Below, in pieces: positions 15,546 through 46,759 of a DNA stretch of 64,000 nucleotides (the first letter of the stretch is position 1; the number at the start of each line of letters is the position of its first letter). Source of the DNA: Syncephalis fuscata. Lineage: Eukaryota; Zoopagomycota; Zoopagomycetes; Zoopagales; Piptocephalidaceae. Below the pieces are notes generated by a model, which did no database searches, had not been told where the DNA came from, and saw nothing but the letters and a program-made list of their open reading frames with translations. The translations under genes were made by a program, and so were the position numbers. The stretch lies in contig JAHLTZ010000015.1 of NCBI GenBank assembly GCA_025786725.1, forward strand, positions 496,001 through 560,000. Reading direction: 5' to 3'.

Positions 15546-16363
15546 AACAATTACAATTAAATGAAATAGCAATAACGAGAAAGAGATATGTAAAATGTAT
15601 GTGATACAATGTTAACTGATTTAGTCTTGTTCTAACATGACCGCTAAAGATTGGTTCAATATGGTCTTACACCTTCAACTTGATTTATTCGTTTAATTAT
15701 ACTGGATATCTAGTTTAAGCAGGATATACATGCTATTATTAAATTCAAATCAAGACATAATAATAAATCCCATTAAATCCAAGAATAAATGACCTATTCA
15801 ACCATGCAAATGATAACATATTTGTGTACTTTATCAATTTGCTAACTTGCTTGCCATATAGTATGTGTTTTATAAGTTGGCATACTAATGCAACTGCTAA
15901 AATATCCAGATAAGACTAATATAAATCTATTAACGAATAAAGAACAAGTCAGCGGCAGTTATGCGTTACCCAAAGATTAGTTTTATTAATGTAGTAATAT
16001 TTTACTGTTTATTTAGTTAACAGTAGTATTAAATGACTGATCATGCAGTTCAATCGGCAATAATTGATTTTTATTATTATATTAATTTCAAGATGAATTG
16101 CAATGAATACAAGCTAATATTATTTCGGTATTATTCATAATATACTTGTAAATACAGTCGATTACAATGCTAGCATGTATTTATAAACTTCAGATTTTAA
16201 ATCGTTATTTAAATAACAATGCTATTATAATCACTTTAGTTTACATTGTTCACTAACATAGCGTATTTTTACAAGTATATTGTCAATATATTTAATCAAT
16301 TAATGTTAGTCTTTGTAAGCAAATAGAATATAAACATAGCTATAATAGCTTAATCAAACACAA
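15546..16363. other. AT-rich intergenic and 3' flank of locus A
   Basis: No gene is seen. From roughly 15.9 kb onward the sequence is alignable, in inverted orientation, with the 3' flank of locus B at 45.8-46.3 kb, so this is the outer part of the duplicated block. Confidence 0.5.
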
Positions 16364-18507
16364 TTAAGATGGAACCACATGTTTATTACTACAAGTTTGC
16401 ATACTTGATTGCATACAAACAAATACAGACTTGTTGGTAATATAAGAAATCCATCGATTAAGGGTTGAATAAACCAGGGCATTGGCTGGGACTTGGTAGC
16501 TGAGTGGGCTGAGTGGTGTAGTTGTCAAATGATCTTGATTCTTGCCGAATATATACCTAAAATATATATAACTCGCAGTCCAATCATACTATCAGTGCCA
16601 ATATTTTGAATGCGCCAGTTATTCTATAGTCATGAGCACATATAAAATATTATATGGTTAGCGTATGAGTTAGCATTATATGATTCTACTTACAATCTAT
16701 TAATACAAGGCATCAAACACGTAAAGTGTACAGTATATATTTAATGCATCGTCAATAATATACAGTATTACTTACGAGCTATTAATACAAGTCATCAAAC
16801 ACAAAGAATATGATAGTTGTTTAACGTATAGCCAATTAATATACAATGCCACTTACATTCTATTATGTTAAGTTATTGATAAGCACAATACAAGTATATA
16901 ATTAGTGTATAGCCAGTTAATATACAATACCATAATTGTTAAGTGAAACCCCCCCCCTCCTGTTTTTTAGGTAAAACAATATGCAAGCCAGTTTAAACAA
17001 GTAGGTCCAAAAACAAGACCTTGGCCAGAATAGCCAAGGAAAAACAATTGGGATCAACTTCAAGAGAATAGTGCTGTGTAGCACCATTCAAAAAAAAGAT
17101 GGTCCCGCATGAGATCTATATGGACCGGATTTTGCGCAAAAACGTAGCAGTCCACCCGTTAAAAGTTTGGAAAAGTCCAAAAATAGTGGGAAGCAGCGCA
17201 AATGCTTTAATTATGTGCAGCGGGGGCTCACAAGCTTTTCAAAATAAAATAAAAATATAATATAATATTACTTACTGCCTATTAATAAAAGTCATCAAAC
17301 ACGCAAAATGTACGGTATGTATTTAGTGCATAGTCAATTAATATACAATAACACTTACCCTCTATTAATACAAGTCATCAAACACGTAAAGTGCACGGTA
17401 TATGCTTAGCGTATAGTCAATTAATATATAATACTACTTACGACCTATTAATACAAGCCATCAAACACACAAAATGTACAATATATGTTTAGTGCATAGT
17501 TAATCAATATATAATGCCACTTACCAACTATTAATACAAGTCATCAAACGCAAAAAGTGCACAGTATATAATTAATGCATAGTCAACTAATATACAATAC
17601 TACTTACAACCTATCAATACAAGTCACCAAACACACAAAATGTACGGCATATGTTTAGTGCATAGTCAATCAATATATAACATTACTTACCAACTATTAA
17701 TATAAGTCATCAAACACACAAAGTGCATGGTATATATTTAGTGCATAGTCGAGCAATATACAATGTCACTTACAAGCTATTAATACAAGTCATCAAACAC
17801 GCAAAGTGCACAGTATATATTTAGTGCATAGTCAATCAATGTACGATATCACTTACGAGCTATTAATACAGGTTATCGAACACACAAAGTGCACAGTATA
17901 TATTTAGTGCATAATCAATTAATTATTACTATTGCTATTTACCTCCTATTAATACGAGTAATCGAACACACAAAGTGCACAGTATATATTTAGTGCATAA
18001 TCAATTAATTATTACTATTGCTATTTACCTCCTATTAATACGAGTAATCGAACACACAAAGTGCACAGTATATATTTAGTGCATAATCAATTAATTATTC
18101 TTATTGTTATTTACCTCCTATTAGTATAGATAGGCAATGTTAGTATCAGCAATATAATTTGTTTTATATTAAACCTACTTTTAACCAATGGTGCTATTTT
18201 ATTTGTTTTACATTAAAAACAACAATTAATTATTATGCCAATAACTATGTGCAATCAACAATTACCATCTATTTGCCATGTCCATTATTTGGATAACATA
18301 CGATAAGCGCTGGAATAATGAGTCAATAATTGCGACTTACCATCTAATATTATCATTGGTTAAACATAATGTTAGCAAACATTTCAAATTTCAAATTTAT
18401 GACTACAACATACCACGACGAACCAAAGTTGGCTTAGCATCCACCATGGCTGTACTGGCTACAAGGGCCACGAGGACGGTGCAGACGACGGCAATAGAAA
18501 GCTTCAT
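16364..18507 (-). CDS. Locus A: predicted secreted peptide gene with sixteen 3-base micro-exons
   Basis: Exon 1 (18507-18414) encodes a classic signal peptide, MKLSIAVVCTVLVALVAS then TAMVDA, followed by KPTLVRR and one leftover G before a strong GTATGT donor. Sixteen 3-base exons then follow, each closed by GT-A donors and TAG acceptors (minus-strand reading): ATG 18341-18343; ATG 18266-18268; GAG 18115-18117; GAG 18029-18031; GAG 17943-17945; CTC 17857-17859; CTT 17774-17776; TTG 17691-17693; GTT 17608-17610; TTG 17525-17527; GTC 17442-17444; AGG 17359-17361; GCA 17276-17278; AAT 16857-16859; CTC 16776-16778; ATT 16694-16696. In phase 1 the junction codons spell D, D, G, G, G, A, P, F, G, F, G, Q, G, K, S, H with no stop. 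The terminal exon starts at 16556. In the joined frame it adds CIYSARIKII and stops. A 63-codon frame, open to 16364, would need a later acceptor. A splice from exon 1 straight to the terminal exon is also in frame. No family is recognised. Confidence 0.6.
16694..18117 (-). repeat. Tandem array of 83/86-base intron plus micro-exon units
   Basis: Each unit read on the minus strand is a complete intron (GTAAGT or GTAAAT, a GCACTAAA element mid-intron that could be the branch site, then TATTAATAG) plus a 3-base exon. Spacing between successive triplets is 83 bases for seven intervals and 86 bases for the three intervals between 17857 and 18115. The three left-most units are spaced 81-82 bases or are interrupted by the SINE remnant. 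The GAG-bearing 86-base units are almost identical and look recently duplicated. Confidence 0.9.
16943..17262 (+). mobile_element. SINE remnant within an intron of locus A
   Basis: The segment matches the reverse complement of the SINE in locus B: shared blocks include GGGGGCTCACAAGC, AGTCCACCCGTTAAAAG and an A/T-rich tail beginning CAAAATAAAATAAAA. The tRNA-like head is missing, and the left edge is a C run at about 16950. It sits antisense to the peptide gene, close to the donor after the GCA micro-exon, just as in locus B, so the insertion probably predates the duplication. Confidence 0.7.
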
Positions 18508-18643
18508 GGTGAGATTGATTTGTTAAGACAAACAAGTAGAGTGAACGACAGAGTATGTCAAGTGCAAAGTAGGCAGAGTGAGTATTTGGCAGAAAGCAGA
18601 ATGTGATGATGATACTGCTGGTTAGTTGTGTGTATTTTGTGGG

Positions 18644-18652
18644 CTATTTATA
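18644..18652 (-). promoter_or_regulatory. TATA box of locus A
   Basis: TATAAATAG on the minus strand lies about 137 bases upstream of the ATG at 18507. The same motif sits at the same distance in locus B, within a conserved upstream block. Confidence 0.55.
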
Positions 18653-18889
18653 TTAATATTTATTTTGAAGCACCAGCAATGTATCCTATAGAATATACCA
18701 TTGAATACAGTGTAAACCAATAAAATGTATTGATATGACGATTTAGCAGGCATGGATGAATAACTGTAGTGTGCATTCTATACGTGCAATGGTAGTCTTC
18801 AAAGGTATTCACATGATGATTTGAAGTATGCGTATAGCAATGTACTAATGACATGCTAATGTGCAACCATGCCCTTGATTCAACCTGTT

Positions 18890-19620
18890 TGGCTTTTGCT
18901 CAGATGACGCGGCGAACCTAACCACCTGGTACATCTATGGTAGAAATTTGTGTACTATTCTTTACAATATCGTACATGGTTTGAACATGTAATGCAAACC
19001 AAATCCATTGATTCTATAGAAGCAATAATGATACGCCTTTGTGTTCTTGCTATTGCTTTTACCGAAAAATTAATCCCCAACTTGACCGTAAGATGCAAAC
19101 TGAAACAACTGGTTCTACAGAAATAATGATGCTCCGTTGTTGTTTCTTTACTTTAACCTGCTTACCATTTGCACAAAGGACCCGACAATCTCAATCATTC
19201 AGTACACCTATGGTAGAAATTCGTGTACTATTCTTTACAATATCGTACATGGTTTGACCATGCAATGCAAACCAAGTTCATTGATTCTATAGAAGCAATG
19301 ATGATACGCATTTGTGTTCTTGCTATTGCTTTTACCGAAAAATTAATCCCCAACTTGACCGTAAGACGCAAACTGAAACAATTGGTTTTACAGAAATAAT
19401 GATGCTCCGTTGTTGTTTCTTTACTTTAACCTGCTTAACATTTGCACAAAGGACCCGACAATCTCAATCATTCAGTACATCTATGGTAGAAATCCATGTA
19501 CTAATATTTACTGTACTGTGCATGATTTGACCATACAATACAAACTGAGTCTATTGGTTCTATAGAAGCAGTAGTAACACAACAATGTGTTTTGCTGTTG
19601 CTTTTACCGAAACATTTTAA
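18890..19620. repeat. 273-base tandem repeat upstream of locus A
   Basis: Blocks such as GCTTTTACCGAAAAATTAAT recur with a 273-base period (near 19050, 19325 and, degenerate, 19598), about 2.6 copies. The matching region upstream of locus B (43640-44080, inverted) holds nearly two copies with the same period. Short open frames inside the repeat repeat with it and are not credible genes. Confidence 0.75.
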
Positions 19621-20156
19621 TCCCCAATATTTGCATCCTTTCAAACTGCGCATAACTCGTAAGATAGTGCATTGCCTTTGAACAAACCCCGATATAATCT
19701 TTTTGTGGAATTAGGTCTGTTTTGACACCAAACTGCATTCTCTTCATTTTATAGACGACTACAAGGTTTATTAATAGTCGGTAAATAAAAGCTATTTATT
19801 ATTATTTCAAACTGCACAACACATATACAAAAGCAACATTAATAAATTGAGTTTCTTTACATACCTATAATGTTGTGCATAAGCCAGTTACAATGATTAA
19901 ATCGTGCAATATATTGGTTGGTTCATGTGACCATTCTACTTGCCATTGCAGCTTAGCTACAAAAATTACCAATTTATTTTTAGCACTGTCTTACTAATCA
20001 TTGATACAGGCCTTATCGCTATCAGTCAATTCCTGTTATTAATTATTGGCTGCTGCGTAATGGTATTCCCGATAATGAAGCACTAAACTCGAGTATTAAT
20101 GGTATATTACTTAGTGGCAACACTGATATACAAGCAACTTGTTTGGTTAAACTATA

Positions 20157-42628: not shown

Positions 42629-44310
42629 TGTGTTTATGACTTTAGACCGAAATGAATTGCGAGAATAGTAATATCCAGTTGTGATTAGGATAGAATGTGA
42701 TGGTTTTTATTGCATAAATGGCTGTTTTGCTTGTTGATTGCCAATGTGTTACTGTGTTGATTACATCATTACTGTCTATTAAACATTGCTTATGATCAAA
42801 CTAATTGTCTATGATTTGTTTAAATATATTTGATATATTTCGTCACAATAATCGTAGATCATAATTAATCAATTCTATTAATTTAAATTATGTGTCTAAA
42901 ATAAGTAGCATTTTTTGCTACAGATATGCATACAAATTTATTTTAGTATTTGCAAATAGCAAATACCACATAAGTAAATTTTATTAACATATTGCACATT
43001 CGTATTATTTATTTTAACAATAATATAAATATGTATAACACCAGTGACAAACAATAGATATAGTGTGTATATTAAAATGATTAATGAATAAATTCTAGTG
43101 TCTTTACATTACTTTATGATTAATCATCAACATCAATACTCGAGTCCAATGCTTCATTATTAGGAATACCATTACGCAACAGCCGATAATTAATAACAGG
43201 AATTGACTGATAGCGATAAGACCTGTATCAATGATTGGTAACACAGTGCTAAAAATAAACTGGTAATTCTTGCAGTTAAGCTGCAATGTCAAGTAGAATG
43301 ACCACATGAACCAATCAATATATTGCATGGTTCAACTATTGCAACTAGCTTATGCACAACAGTGTAGGCATGCAAAGAATTACAAGTTCAATTTATTAAT
43401 GCTGGTTTTGTATGTGTTGTGCAGTTTGAAAGAGGGATAAAGTAACTTTTATTTACCGGCTATTAATAAAACTTGTAATCATTTATAAATCAAAGAGAAT
43501 GTAGTTTGGTATCAAAACAAAACCAATTTTATAAAAGATTATATTGAGATTTATTTAAAGGCAATGCGCTATTTTGCGAGTTATGCGCAGTTTGAAAAGA
43601 TGCAGATATTGAGGATTAGAATGTTTCGGCGAAAGCAGTAGTAAAAGCATAAAGATGTACCACCACTGCTTCTGTAGAACCAATAGATTTAGTTTGTATT
43701 GCATGGTCAAATCACGCACTGCACAGTAAAGACTAGCATGTGGATTTTTATTATAGATGTACTGGATGATTGAGATTGCCGCGTCATCTGAGCAAATGCC
43801 AACAGGCTGAAGTAAAGATACAGCAATGGAGCATCATTATTTCTGTATAACCAATGGATTCAGTTTGCGTCGTACGGTCAAGTTGGGGATTAATTTTTCA
43901 GTGAAAACAGTAGCAAAAACACAAAAATGCATCGTCACTGCTTCCATAAAACCAATAGATTTGGTTTGTATTGCATGGTCAAATCACGCACAGCACAGTA
44001 AAGACTAGCATGTGGATTTCTATTATAGATGTACTGGATGATTGAGATTGCCGCGTCATCTGAGCAAAAGTCAAACAGGCTGAATTAAAGGCTTGGCTGC
44101 ACATTAGCATGTCATTAGTACATTGCTATACGCATACTTCAAATCATCATGTGAATACCTTTGAAGACTACCGTTGCACGTATAGAATGCACACTACAGC
44201 TATTCATCCATGCCTGCTAAATCGTCATATTAATGCATTTTATTGGTTTACACTGTATTCAATGGTATATTCAATAGAATACACTGCTGGCGCTTCAAAA
44301 TAAATATTAA

Positions 44311-44319
44311 TATAAATAG
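44311..44319 (+). promoter_or_regulatory. TATA box of locus B
   Basis: TATAAATAG lies about 137 bases before the ATG at 44456, the same motif and spacing as in locus A. Confidence 0.55.
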
Positions 44320-44455
44320 CCCACAAAATACACACAACTAACCAGCAGTATCATCATCACTTTCTACTTTCTGCCAACTACTCACTACTACCTACTTTAT
44401 ACTACTAAACTCTATTGTCTATTTTACTTGTTTATCTTAACAAATTAACATTACA

Positions 44456-45835
44456 ATGAAGCTTTCTATCGTCGTCGTCGTCTGCACCATTGTCGTGGCC
44501 TTTGTAGCCAGTACAGCCATGGTGGATGCTAGTCCAGCTTTGGTTCGTCGTGGTATGTTGTAGTCATAATAAATTTGAAATTTGAAATGTTTGCTAACAT
44601 TATGTTTAACCAACGATAATATTAGATGGTAAGTCGCAATTATTGACTCATTATTCCAGCGCTTATCGTATGTTATCCAAATAATGGACATGGCAAATAG
44701 TTGGTAAGTTGATTGCACATAGTTATTGGCATAATAACTGATCGTTGTTTTTAATGTAAAATAAATAAAATAGCACCATTGGCTAAAAGTAGGTTTAATA
44801 TAAAACAAATTATATTGCTGATACTAACATTGCCTATCTATTCTAATAGGAGGTAAATGACAATAAGAATACTTAATTGGCCATTTAATTAAATGCTGTT
44901 TATATTACCAAACTAGCACCACAAGATGGTAAGTAGTATTGTATATTATTTTATTTTATTTTGAAAAGCTTGTGAGCCCCCGCTGCACATAATTAAAGCA
45001 TTTGCGCTGCTTCCCACTATTTTTGGACTTTTCCAAACTTTTAACGGGTGGACTGCCACGTTTTTGTGCAAATCCGGTCCATGTAGATCTCACGCGGGGG
45101 CCATCTTCTTTTGAATAGTGCCACACTGCACTATTCTCTTGAAGTTGGTCCCAATTGATTTTTCCTCGGCTATTCTGGCCAAAGCCTTGTTTCCGGACCT
45201 ACTTATTGGGTTCTGGTTTGCAATTTGTTAACTAGAAAAAACTGGGAGGATTTCTACTTAAAGATTGATTTAAACTAAGGTTTAAACCCGGAACCTTCAA
45301 CTCGGGAAACGCTACCTTACCTACTGGGCTAGTAACGCTCCCGTAGTATTGTATATTGATTGAATATGCACTAAATATATACCGTACATTTTGTGTGTTT
45401 GATGACTTGTATTAATAGGCGGTAAGTAGTATTGTATATTGATTGACTATGCACTAAATATATACCGTACATTTTGTGTGTTTGATAATCTGTATTAATA
45501 GAAGGTAAGTAGAAGCATATAATGCCAACTCATACGCTAACCATATGATGTTTATATATGTACTCATGATTATAGAATAACTGGTGCATTCAAAATATTG
45601 GCACTGATAGTATGATTGGACTGCGAGTTATATATATTTTAGGTATATATTCGGCAAGAATCAAGATCATTTGACAACTACGCCATTCAGCCCATTCATC
45701 TACCAAGTCCCAGCCAATGCCCCGGTTTATTCAACCCTTAATCGATGGATTTCTTATATTACCAACAAGTCTGTATTTGTTTGTATGCAATCAACTATAC
45801 AAACTTGTAGTAATAAACATGTGGTTCCATCTTAA
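44456..45835 (+). CDS. Locus B: predicted secreted peptide gene with micro-exons, paralogue of locus A
   Basis: Exon 1 (44456-44552) encodes the signal peptide MKLSIVVVVCTIVVAFVAS then TAMVDA, followed by SPALVRR and one leftover G before GTATGT. Micro-exons follow: ATG 44626-44628; TTG 44701-44703; GAG 44850-44852; an exon ending in ATG at 44928 that is 12 bases if the TAG at 44914-44916 is used or 3 bases if the CAAG acceptor is used; GCG 45419-45421; AAG 45502-45504. The GCG and AAG exons are 83 bases apart, as in locus A. The terminal exon starts at 45643. In phase 1 the peptide ends in GIYSARIKII with a stop at 45672-45674. A second frame is open for 63 codons to 45835 and is also open in locus A. 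Upstream exons are all multiples of three, so any subset keeps the frame. No family is recognised. Confidence 0.6.
44933..45357 (-). mobile_element. tRNA-derived SINE with target-site duplication
   Basis: A 15-base direct repeat, GTAGTATTGTATATT, flanks the insertion at 44933-44947 and 45343-45357. Read on the minus strand, the body starts with a tRNA-like head. Its TAGCCCAGTAGG resembles an A box and its GGTTCCGGGTT a B box of RNA polymerase III. It ends in an A/T-rich tail. The element is about 395 bases and lies inside an intron of locus B, antisense to the gene. Confidence 0.8.
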
Positions 45836-46759
45836 TTGTGCTTGATTAAGCTATTATAGCTATGTTCATATTCCATTTGCTTACAAAGATTGCAAACATT
45901 AATTGATTAATATATTAACAGTAGACTTGTAAAAATGTGCTATACTAGTGAATAATGTAAACTAAAGTGATTGTAATAGCATTGTTATTTAAATAGCAAT
46001 TAGTATTTAATTATTTACAAGCATATTATAAGTACTAAAATTATCATTAGTATGTAGTCATTATTACTTAATAAAGTCGCCATTTGATTAACACAAACCA
46101 CTACTAAATTACTGCTTATTCACGAACGATATAGATTGTATATAACAACGTTACTATATCATTTGACTTGAATGTATGCAATGTTGTGAAATAGATACTG
46201 TATCATTGAACATTGTATAATTGGCACTTTTATGTTGGCTATAATGTTATTCAATTTAGCTAGTTAAACAATTGTATATTAAATGGACTGAGTGTGCATA
46301 CTAGTCAATGATACTGCTAGAGACAAAGAATATTAAGTGGAAAAGGAAGCAAGATGGATGAAAATGAACAGTGAATGTCATTGGAATGAATGAACAACGC
46401 AAGTAGTCGAATATCACTAATCAATATGCTGTAATTAAGTATAAGAAAACGGAAACACTACATTGTAACTTCAATTAATCACTTGTGAATAAGTTCTTCC
46501 AAAGTAAATGTTAATAATTAAAGCAATCTTGTATTATTCATCAGCTCAAATAAAAATAACGAATTTTTTTAGACTGTTCAAATACATATACTATATTAAA
46601 GTAAATAATTGTATGTAAATAATTGTAATAATTTGATTGGATTAAACTGTGTTTAAATCGTTATTCATAATAAATATTAATGTAATATCATTATCATTTC
46701 CATAAAGTAGAATTAAATGTAACATGACATTGTATTAGTAATAATATTAAACATTTAAA

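Follow-up and report, generated by a model that had tools for sequence, protein, structure and literature searches.

Can a gene be assembled from internal exons that are each no longer than one codon? This question is raised by a minus-strand locus of the zoopagomycete Syncephalis fuscata, here called gene A, which runs from 18507 to 16623 in the stretch of 64,000 nucleotides that we analysed (the window), and for which the original prediction had proposed sixteen one-codon exons. We consider it roughly 92% probable that gene A belongs to a large family of secreted-peptide genes whose internal exons are nearly all of 3 nt, in phase 1, and constitutively spliced in order, a reading made from the sequence, in which the chain, its phase, the constraint upon it, the variability of its triplets, and the intronless counterparts of the family can be traced.

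Gene A and gene B in the window

The predicted gene A comprises a signal-peptide exon, 16 three-base exons, one 15-base exon, and a terminal exon with an immediate stop, all on the minus strand. Exon 1 (18414..18507, 94 nt) would encode a signal peptide, followed by a short pro-region that runs up to a dibasic RR, with the product MKLSIAVVCTVLVALVASTAMVDAKPTLVRR plus one base of the next codon (phase 1), and it ends at the donor G|GTATGT. By eye, a TATA-like box, TATTTATA in plus-strand letters, lies at 18645-18652, about 138 bases 5' of the ATG, in agreement with the signal-peptide exon and upstream TATA box proposed originally. Upstream of the gene there is also a 273-bp tandem repeat (18929-19627, 2.6 copies).

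The internal chain begins with microexon 1, ATG (18341..18343), and microexon 2, also ATG (18266..18268), which has the weak donor GTAATT and whose position is occupied in paralogues by TTG with donors GTAAGT or GTAAGT-like. Then comes the 15-nt exon CACCATTGGTTAAAA (18179..18193, donor GTAGGT), which together with its neighbours encodes APLVKR, a second dibasic site, to be compared with the DAAPLAKR that follows RR in the intronless paralogue L063. The chain continues through GAG (18115..18117), GAG (18029..18031), GAG (17943..17945), CTC (17857..17859), CTT (17774..17776), TTG (17691..17693), GTT (17608..17610), TTG (17525..17527), GTC (17442..17444), AGG (17359..17361), and GCA (17276..17278), after which an intron of 416 nt with an inserted repeat leads to AAT (16857..16859), CTC (16776..16778), and the last microexon, ATT (16694..16696). 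Apart from this 416-nt intron, all introns measure 61-83 nt, in keeping with the length of about 80 bases originally noted for most of them, and all 16 triplets are present as TAG|NNN|GTAAGT or TAG|NNN|GTAAAT, the only departure being the donor of 18268-18266; the proposed acceptors thus stand entirely and the proposed donors with one exception. The claim that all exons have three bases fails on the 15-nt exon. Positions 17270..18095, taken without regard to strand, are an 83-bp tandem array of intron-plus-triplet units in 9.9 copies.

The terminal exon (16382..16623) most likely starts at 16623, at CTATAG|AATAA, 70 nt past the last triplet, where the junction T|AA closes the frame with a TAA stop, followed by a presumed 3' UTR up to AATAAA at 16387-16382. 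The gene had been drawn to 16364, in what turns out to be another frame and probably 3' UTR. Another acceptor, TTTTAG|GTATATATTC (16556), opens a long frame (YIFGKNQDHL...) and was rejected for gene A because the long frame is incompatible with phase 1, in which only CIYSARIKII and a stop are read, and because CTATAG|AATAA sits at the usual intron distance. A TTTTAG-type terminal acceptor may serve C57c and C57d, whose usual acceptor is absent from the alignment (L035); the script-picked terminal exons of these two loci are unreliable and were left out of the evidence. Spliced in the phase of exon 1, gene A is predicted to yield the precursor ...KPTLVRR DDAPLVKR GGAPFGFGQGKSH and a stop. The public model of gene A on this contig (C57), the protein P0004 (BDF19DRAFT_422765), consists of exon 1 and microexon 1 and then runs through intron 2 until a stop, that is, the annotation places the first junction at the predicted sites and misses the remaining microexons.

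A second family member, gene B, lies on the plus strand at 44456-45576, with a paralogous exon 1 (44456..44552), the microexons ATG (44626..44628) and TTG (44701..44703), a 15-nt exon CACCATTGGCTAAAA giving APLAKR (44774..44788), GAG (44850..44852), the exon CACCACAAGATG (44917..44928), which would have 12 nt, or its last 3 nt only, depending on the acceptor used, GCG (45419..45421), AAG (45502..45504), and a terminal exon (45576..45817) that stops at once and continues as presumed 3' UTR to AATAAA (45812). Its predicted precursor is ...SPALVRR DVAPLAKR APQDGEE, or with the alternative acceptor ...DVAPLAKR DGEE, each followed by a stop. On both strands of the window, [CT]AG-N3-GTAA[AG]T occurs 28 times, 20 of them inside genes A and B, and every other spacing from 0 to 9 occurs at most 7 times and never inside either gene, so the triplet pattern is not a product of chance.

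Genes A and B form an inverted segmental duplication (about 16200-20100 and 43130-46000) with 82-87% identity in three long blocks. By eye, each has, within one intron, a repeat of about 300-400 bases (44948-45342 in gene B and about 16930-17265 in gene A), SINE-like in size, for which a tRNA scan gave no match; the gene B copy has on either side GTAGTATTGTATATT (44933 and 45343; also found at 45426), which is either a target-site duplication or merely the start of the unit. Searches of Rfam and phage records also gave no match.

Exon lengths and stop codons across triplet junctions

Throughout the genome, the microexons follow a length rule of three, sometimes six, bases. In the 28.95 Mb counted, with the reversed motif as the control, TTAATAG-N3-GTAAGT occurs 1,992 times versus once in the control, and the same motif with N4 spacing 5 times versus 4; after TATTAG, N6 gives 84 versus 12, and N5 gives 12 versus 10. 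These counts, together with the triplets found at their predicted sites in gene A, bear out the proposal of a gene built from one-codon exons. Only part of the 1,992 sites is tied to an exon 1, and the sites are clustered among the matches listed, which are part of that total. Exon-1-like sequence gave 150 scored matches among 314 genome candidates, and the exon-1 donor pattern is found 113 times genome-wide versus 0 in the reversed control.

For parsing, we used 70 overlapping sequences (60 loci, to which 10 genes, joined or from the window, were added), 54 of which have the exon-1 donor, with 39 kept after removing those identical over 700 nt. The parser used splice-site weights and permitted any exon of 1-30 nt; 511 of the 554 exons parsed have 3 nt and 25 have 6 nt, with 542 divisible by three and 12 not, in a length test that is not fully independent, the weights having been trained on TAG-N3-donor sites from the same loci. 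An in-frame stop appeared in 9 of the 39 chains; for eight of them the parser's choice included an exon of 23, 27, or 28 nt, and the remaining one is L079. The median intron of the family loci is 79 nt; some arrays, with one such case in C239, contain gaps of about 160 nt that call for an assumed microexon whose splice sites are weaker, and a candidate 8-nt exon, CGCTTATC, was rejected, since its flanking introns would have 31 and 33 nt. Among the loci surveyed, L042 (C112:950253) is a copy that lacks the array and whose exon 1 has decayed, and it appears to be a pseudogene. In the terminal loci L034-L060, the sequence just past the stop is well conserved and open for about 33 codons in one frame (NRWFQDISIG..IYSVKSKII, members read by eye), and the coding frame of the intronless L088 continues into this stretch.

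Such arrays might instead be satellites within one long intron, or pseudogenes, in which TAG-NNN-GTAAGT is an inherited accident that is never spliced, and the 83-bp tandem repeats of gene A, as well as a frameshift in exon 1 of C57d, would agree with this. We regard it as highly improbable, in the first place on the evidence of stop codons. A phase 1 codon consists of the last base of one triplet and the first two bases of the next, which lie about 80 bases off in the DNA, and the expected number of stops was obtained from 2000 shuffles of the triplets within runs. At neighbouring junctions, we found 1 stop in 422 versus 10.8 expected, with none of the 2000 shuffles as low, while triplets two, three, and four apart gave 9/323 (8.6 expected), 8/266 (6.8 expected), and 5/217 (5.5 expected), respectively. 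Counting only distinct neighbouring junctions, given that related loci depend on one another, there was 1 stop in 265 versus 6.7 expected (P 0.003). A held-out set of 15 terminal-exon loci (L043-L060 minus L046, L050, and L053), which are paralogues of the first set and hence dependent on it by descent, gave 1/160 at neighbouring junctions versus 12.1 expected, and 14/133 (10.4 expected), 11/110 (8.5 expected), and 7/96 (7.3 expected) at two, three, and four apart. The two neighbouring-junction stops that exist are CTT|AAC in L079 and AAT|AAT in L056. We know of no DNA-level cause that would tie bases 80 apart in this way, and the avoidance of stops between half-codons at such a distance therefore argues that the triplets are spliced in order.

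The same counts bear on the possibility that subsets of triplets are spliced alternatively, giving many peptides per gene, as the original proposal of optional inclusion would have it. Subsets do preserve the frame where exons are divisible by three, and very short exons are alternatively spliced elsewhere, for instance a 3-bp exon of Drosophila homothorax according to the cited part of PMC7392893; however, skipping changes the codon at the junction because each codon straddles two exons, and where one to three exons would be left out, stops at the resulting junctions are as frequent as chance predicts, meaning that selection has not kept skipped products open. Alternative splicing as the chief origin of diversity is therefore unlikely, although some exon skipping may occur, and the loss of the constraint between triplets two apart speaks for the whole chain being included, so that the triplets are probably spliced constitutively and in order.

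As for the phase, phase 2 stops show a slight shortage in the first set (23/421 versus 30.7 expected, P 0.03) and number 19/160 in the held-out set. None of 538 triplets is itself a stop, so phase 0 is stop-free too; a TAG triplet would also create a competing acceptor. Stops alone do not decide against phase 0, and both the phase 0 and the phase 2 readings were rejected, the former because it is only in phases 1 and 2 that exon order makes a difference, because phase 1 is the phase of exon 1, and because the phase 0 peptides match the intronless paralogues worst.

Peptide products, intronless paralogues, and divergence of the arrays

These paralogues share exon 1 with the microexon genes and lack introns, and most of those read give cysteine-rich peptides. 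When 52 microexon runs were compared with 11 intronless peptides, phase 1 had a mean score of 20.8 versus 17.5 for shuffled exon order (Wilcoxon P 2e-4), 13.6 for phase 0 (P 7e-8), and 16.4 for phase 2 (P 1e-4), in a comparison where runs from related loci depend on one another and many of the individual runs fail to beat their own shuffles; in the C231 run, phase 2 outscores phase 1. The clearest single case is C239, parsed into 34 microexons, namely 33 triplets and a single 6-nt exon, with one 157-nt gap left, whose predicted six-cysteine peptide AKDPAKCNQCSQCYGNYPYPSQAINDCPKRCAKQCK aligns over its full length with that of the intronless L085, AKDQAKCNRCINECEGVPKPDAKEKCNKPGRCKAECA, with a score of 67. 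Its regex version of 32 exons scores 57 against L085, which is reached by 0 of 5000 exon shuffles (highest 55), and only 12 and 13 in phases 0 and 2. Across junctions, there is an excess of codons for Cys (36 versus 21.4 expected), Pro (57 versus 36.8), and Asn (27 versus 15.4), and a shortage for Ser (25 versus 50.7) and His (9 versus 18.7). This enrichment of cysteine codons, the likeness of the spliced chains to intronless paralogues, and the fact that longer microexons are mostly multiples of three all speak against a satellite or a pseudogene. Some chains lack cysteine, namely the proline-rich C112, C181, and C230, as well as gene A and C231, which are otherwise different.

A hydrophobic N-terminus and RR at residues 30-31 are seen by eye in 8 of 8 aligned intronless members, and a hydrophobic N-terminus with RR is likewise seen in the exon-1 reads of family loci. 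A Pfam scan of eight intronless members gave no match above the cut-off and one weak match below it (L062), and the fold predicted for one intronless member is helical, with low confidence (mean pLDDT 62). A longer relative of 111 aa in S. fuscata, P0005, has an exon-1-like start followed by several KR sites and may be another product type of the family. Syncephalis species are mycoparasites, and the family most likely produces secreted peptides that diversify, that are in many cases cysteine-rich, and that would target the fungal host or rivals.

The triplets vary far more than their introns. In 97 within-array pairs of units whose introns are 90-95% identical, the triplets are 53% identical, whereas control triples taken from intron interiors by the same approach are 90% identical, and the splice sites 97.5%, a figure biased by the choice of sites by pattern; triplets that outvary their introns next to conserved splice sites are again the opposite of what an unspliced satellite or pseudogene would show. 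Adjacent units are slightly more alike than distant ones (identity 0.60 declining to 0.52), and C231 has two extra units, TTC and CTG, relative to its near-copy C84, for a length difference of 158 nt; both observations fit the original idea of a secreted peptide growing codon by codon through duplication of exon plus intron. The peptide comparison of this pair is only partly usable, as gaps of 159, 247, and 160 nt in C84 may hide missed exons, and the other parsed differences fall at these gaps and may be missed exons as well.

We compared 11 intronless loci with C239 and C35. Their homology to C239 breaks off no more than 4 bases from the exon-1 donor in 11/11 and resumes no more than 10 bases from the terminal acceptor (4501) in 8/11, and L072 is 94% identical to C35 across 1321 bases downstream. 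About 1 kb of upstream sequence, in pieces, is shared with microexon loci by 7 of the 11, and for this reason we do not favour simple dispersed retrocopies as the source of all intronless genes; in L061, L062, and L063, the shared upstream sequence ends about 95-120 bases 5' of the ATG, in a retrocopy-like manner, with L066 intermediate. These shared upstream sequences, exon 1, and 3' UTR, as well as breaks of homology so close to the exon-1 donor and the terminal acceptor, would also be expected if intronless cysteine-rich genes were ancestral and introner-like introns, elements known in fungi according to the cited part of PMC4457414, had been inserted between their codons later. We consider such an invasion improbable, given that a gene would have to take up dozens of introns, each in phase 1 and exactly 3 bases from the last, which is harder to achieve than the loss of a block via cDNA, and that adjacent units resemble tandem duplicates. 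The simplest reading of the intronless loci is a block loss of introns via cDNA, which would have been recombined in place or retrocopied.

Splicing, known systems, and significance

In the mechanism that we propose, exon 1 would supply the signal peptide together with a short pro-region closed by RR, a probable Kex2 site, and the remainder of the precursor, including the mature peptide, would be scattered over internal exons separated by introns of about 79 nt, all in phase 1, so that each codon would be pieced together from two exons; the terminal exon would give a stop immediately or within a few codons. With an acceptor and a donor 3 nt apart, both could hardly be bound together, so the introns would probably leave one by one, in a sequential, ratchet-like removal. 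The products would diversify by substitution in the triplets, and tandem duplication or deletion of intron-plus-triplet units would add or drop single residues, while a 3-nt shift of an acceptor may yield the 6-nt exons. Some loci have probably lost their introns as a block, either through recombination with a cDNA copied from the spliced mRNA or in the form of retrocopies.

In the cited portion of PMC6339444, fungal secreted precursors are cut by a KEX2-type protease, as is predicted for the Syncephalis family, those precursors carrying repeated, near-identical motifs, in contrast with the one variable, microexon-encoded peptide per gene in Syncephalis. Recursive splicing at ratchet points, to judge from the parts cited of PMC8605326 and PMC6110457, resembles the present case in acceptors and donors that almost touch and in a likely stepwise removal; those points, however, are zero-nucleotide exons that leave no bases, whereas three bases lie between acceptor and donor in Syncephalis and each step would leave three coding bases. 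For a single-nucleotide exon of Arabidopsis APC11, intron definition together with recursive splicing is suggested by its authors in the cited section of PMC4674806, a case which shows that the spliceosome accepts exons below the length that exon definition requires, although it concerns one exon of one gene and not dozens in succession.

Among microexon gene families, the MEGs of Schistosoma mansoni, as the cited parts of PMC10526429 describe them, resemble the Syncephalis family in secreted products, which are predicted for the latter, in many short internal exons that are mostly multiples of three, and in difficulty for automatic annotation. Their exons are mostly of 15 bp (6-81 bp in the body text, 3-81 bp in the abstract) and their introns range from 100 bp to almost 5000 bp, whereas in the Syncephalis family internal exons nearly all of 3 bp and introns of about 79 bp form tandem arrays, the organism is unrelated, and there is no sign of selected exon skipping. 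The bicycle genes of aphids, from what the cited part of PMC9168663 reports, likewise form a large family, in their case of putative effector genes made up of numerous small exons in one phase, averaging about 17 exons, with internal exons almost all in phase 2, in contrast with the exon 1 and the constraint in phase 1, the single-codon exons, and the fungal genome found here. The original statement that MEGs and bicycle genes have longer exons thus agrees with the MEG sizes, and under a broad definition of microexon gene families, the Syncephalis genes would be an extreme variant of these. Judged by titles and the starts of abstracts, a literature search (subscription papers and preprints being outside its scope) gave neither tandem arrays of 3-nt exons nor a Syncephalis microexon family among the matches listed.

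Taken jointly, we lean towards a reading in which at least about 2,000 three-base exons, dozens per gene, would be joined in obligatory order by a ratchet-like process, the exon being a codon-sized unit genome-wide, with the 80-base introns serving as recombination handles for the gain, loss, and shuffling of single residues in frame, and with mRNA-templated recombination occasionally fixing an intronless product. If true, this would be the most extreme exon-intron architecture known to us, with a mature product cut into single codons, and it raises the question of how a spliceosome faithfully joins dozens of 3-nt exons, for which the family would offer a naturally occurring case in which intron definition and the order of splicing could be put to the test. 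It would also mean that a repertoire of secreted peptides is missed by gene models, with P0004 and P0003 both running into introns, and that there is a route by which introns may raise evolvability, through the frame-safe gain and loss of single residues.
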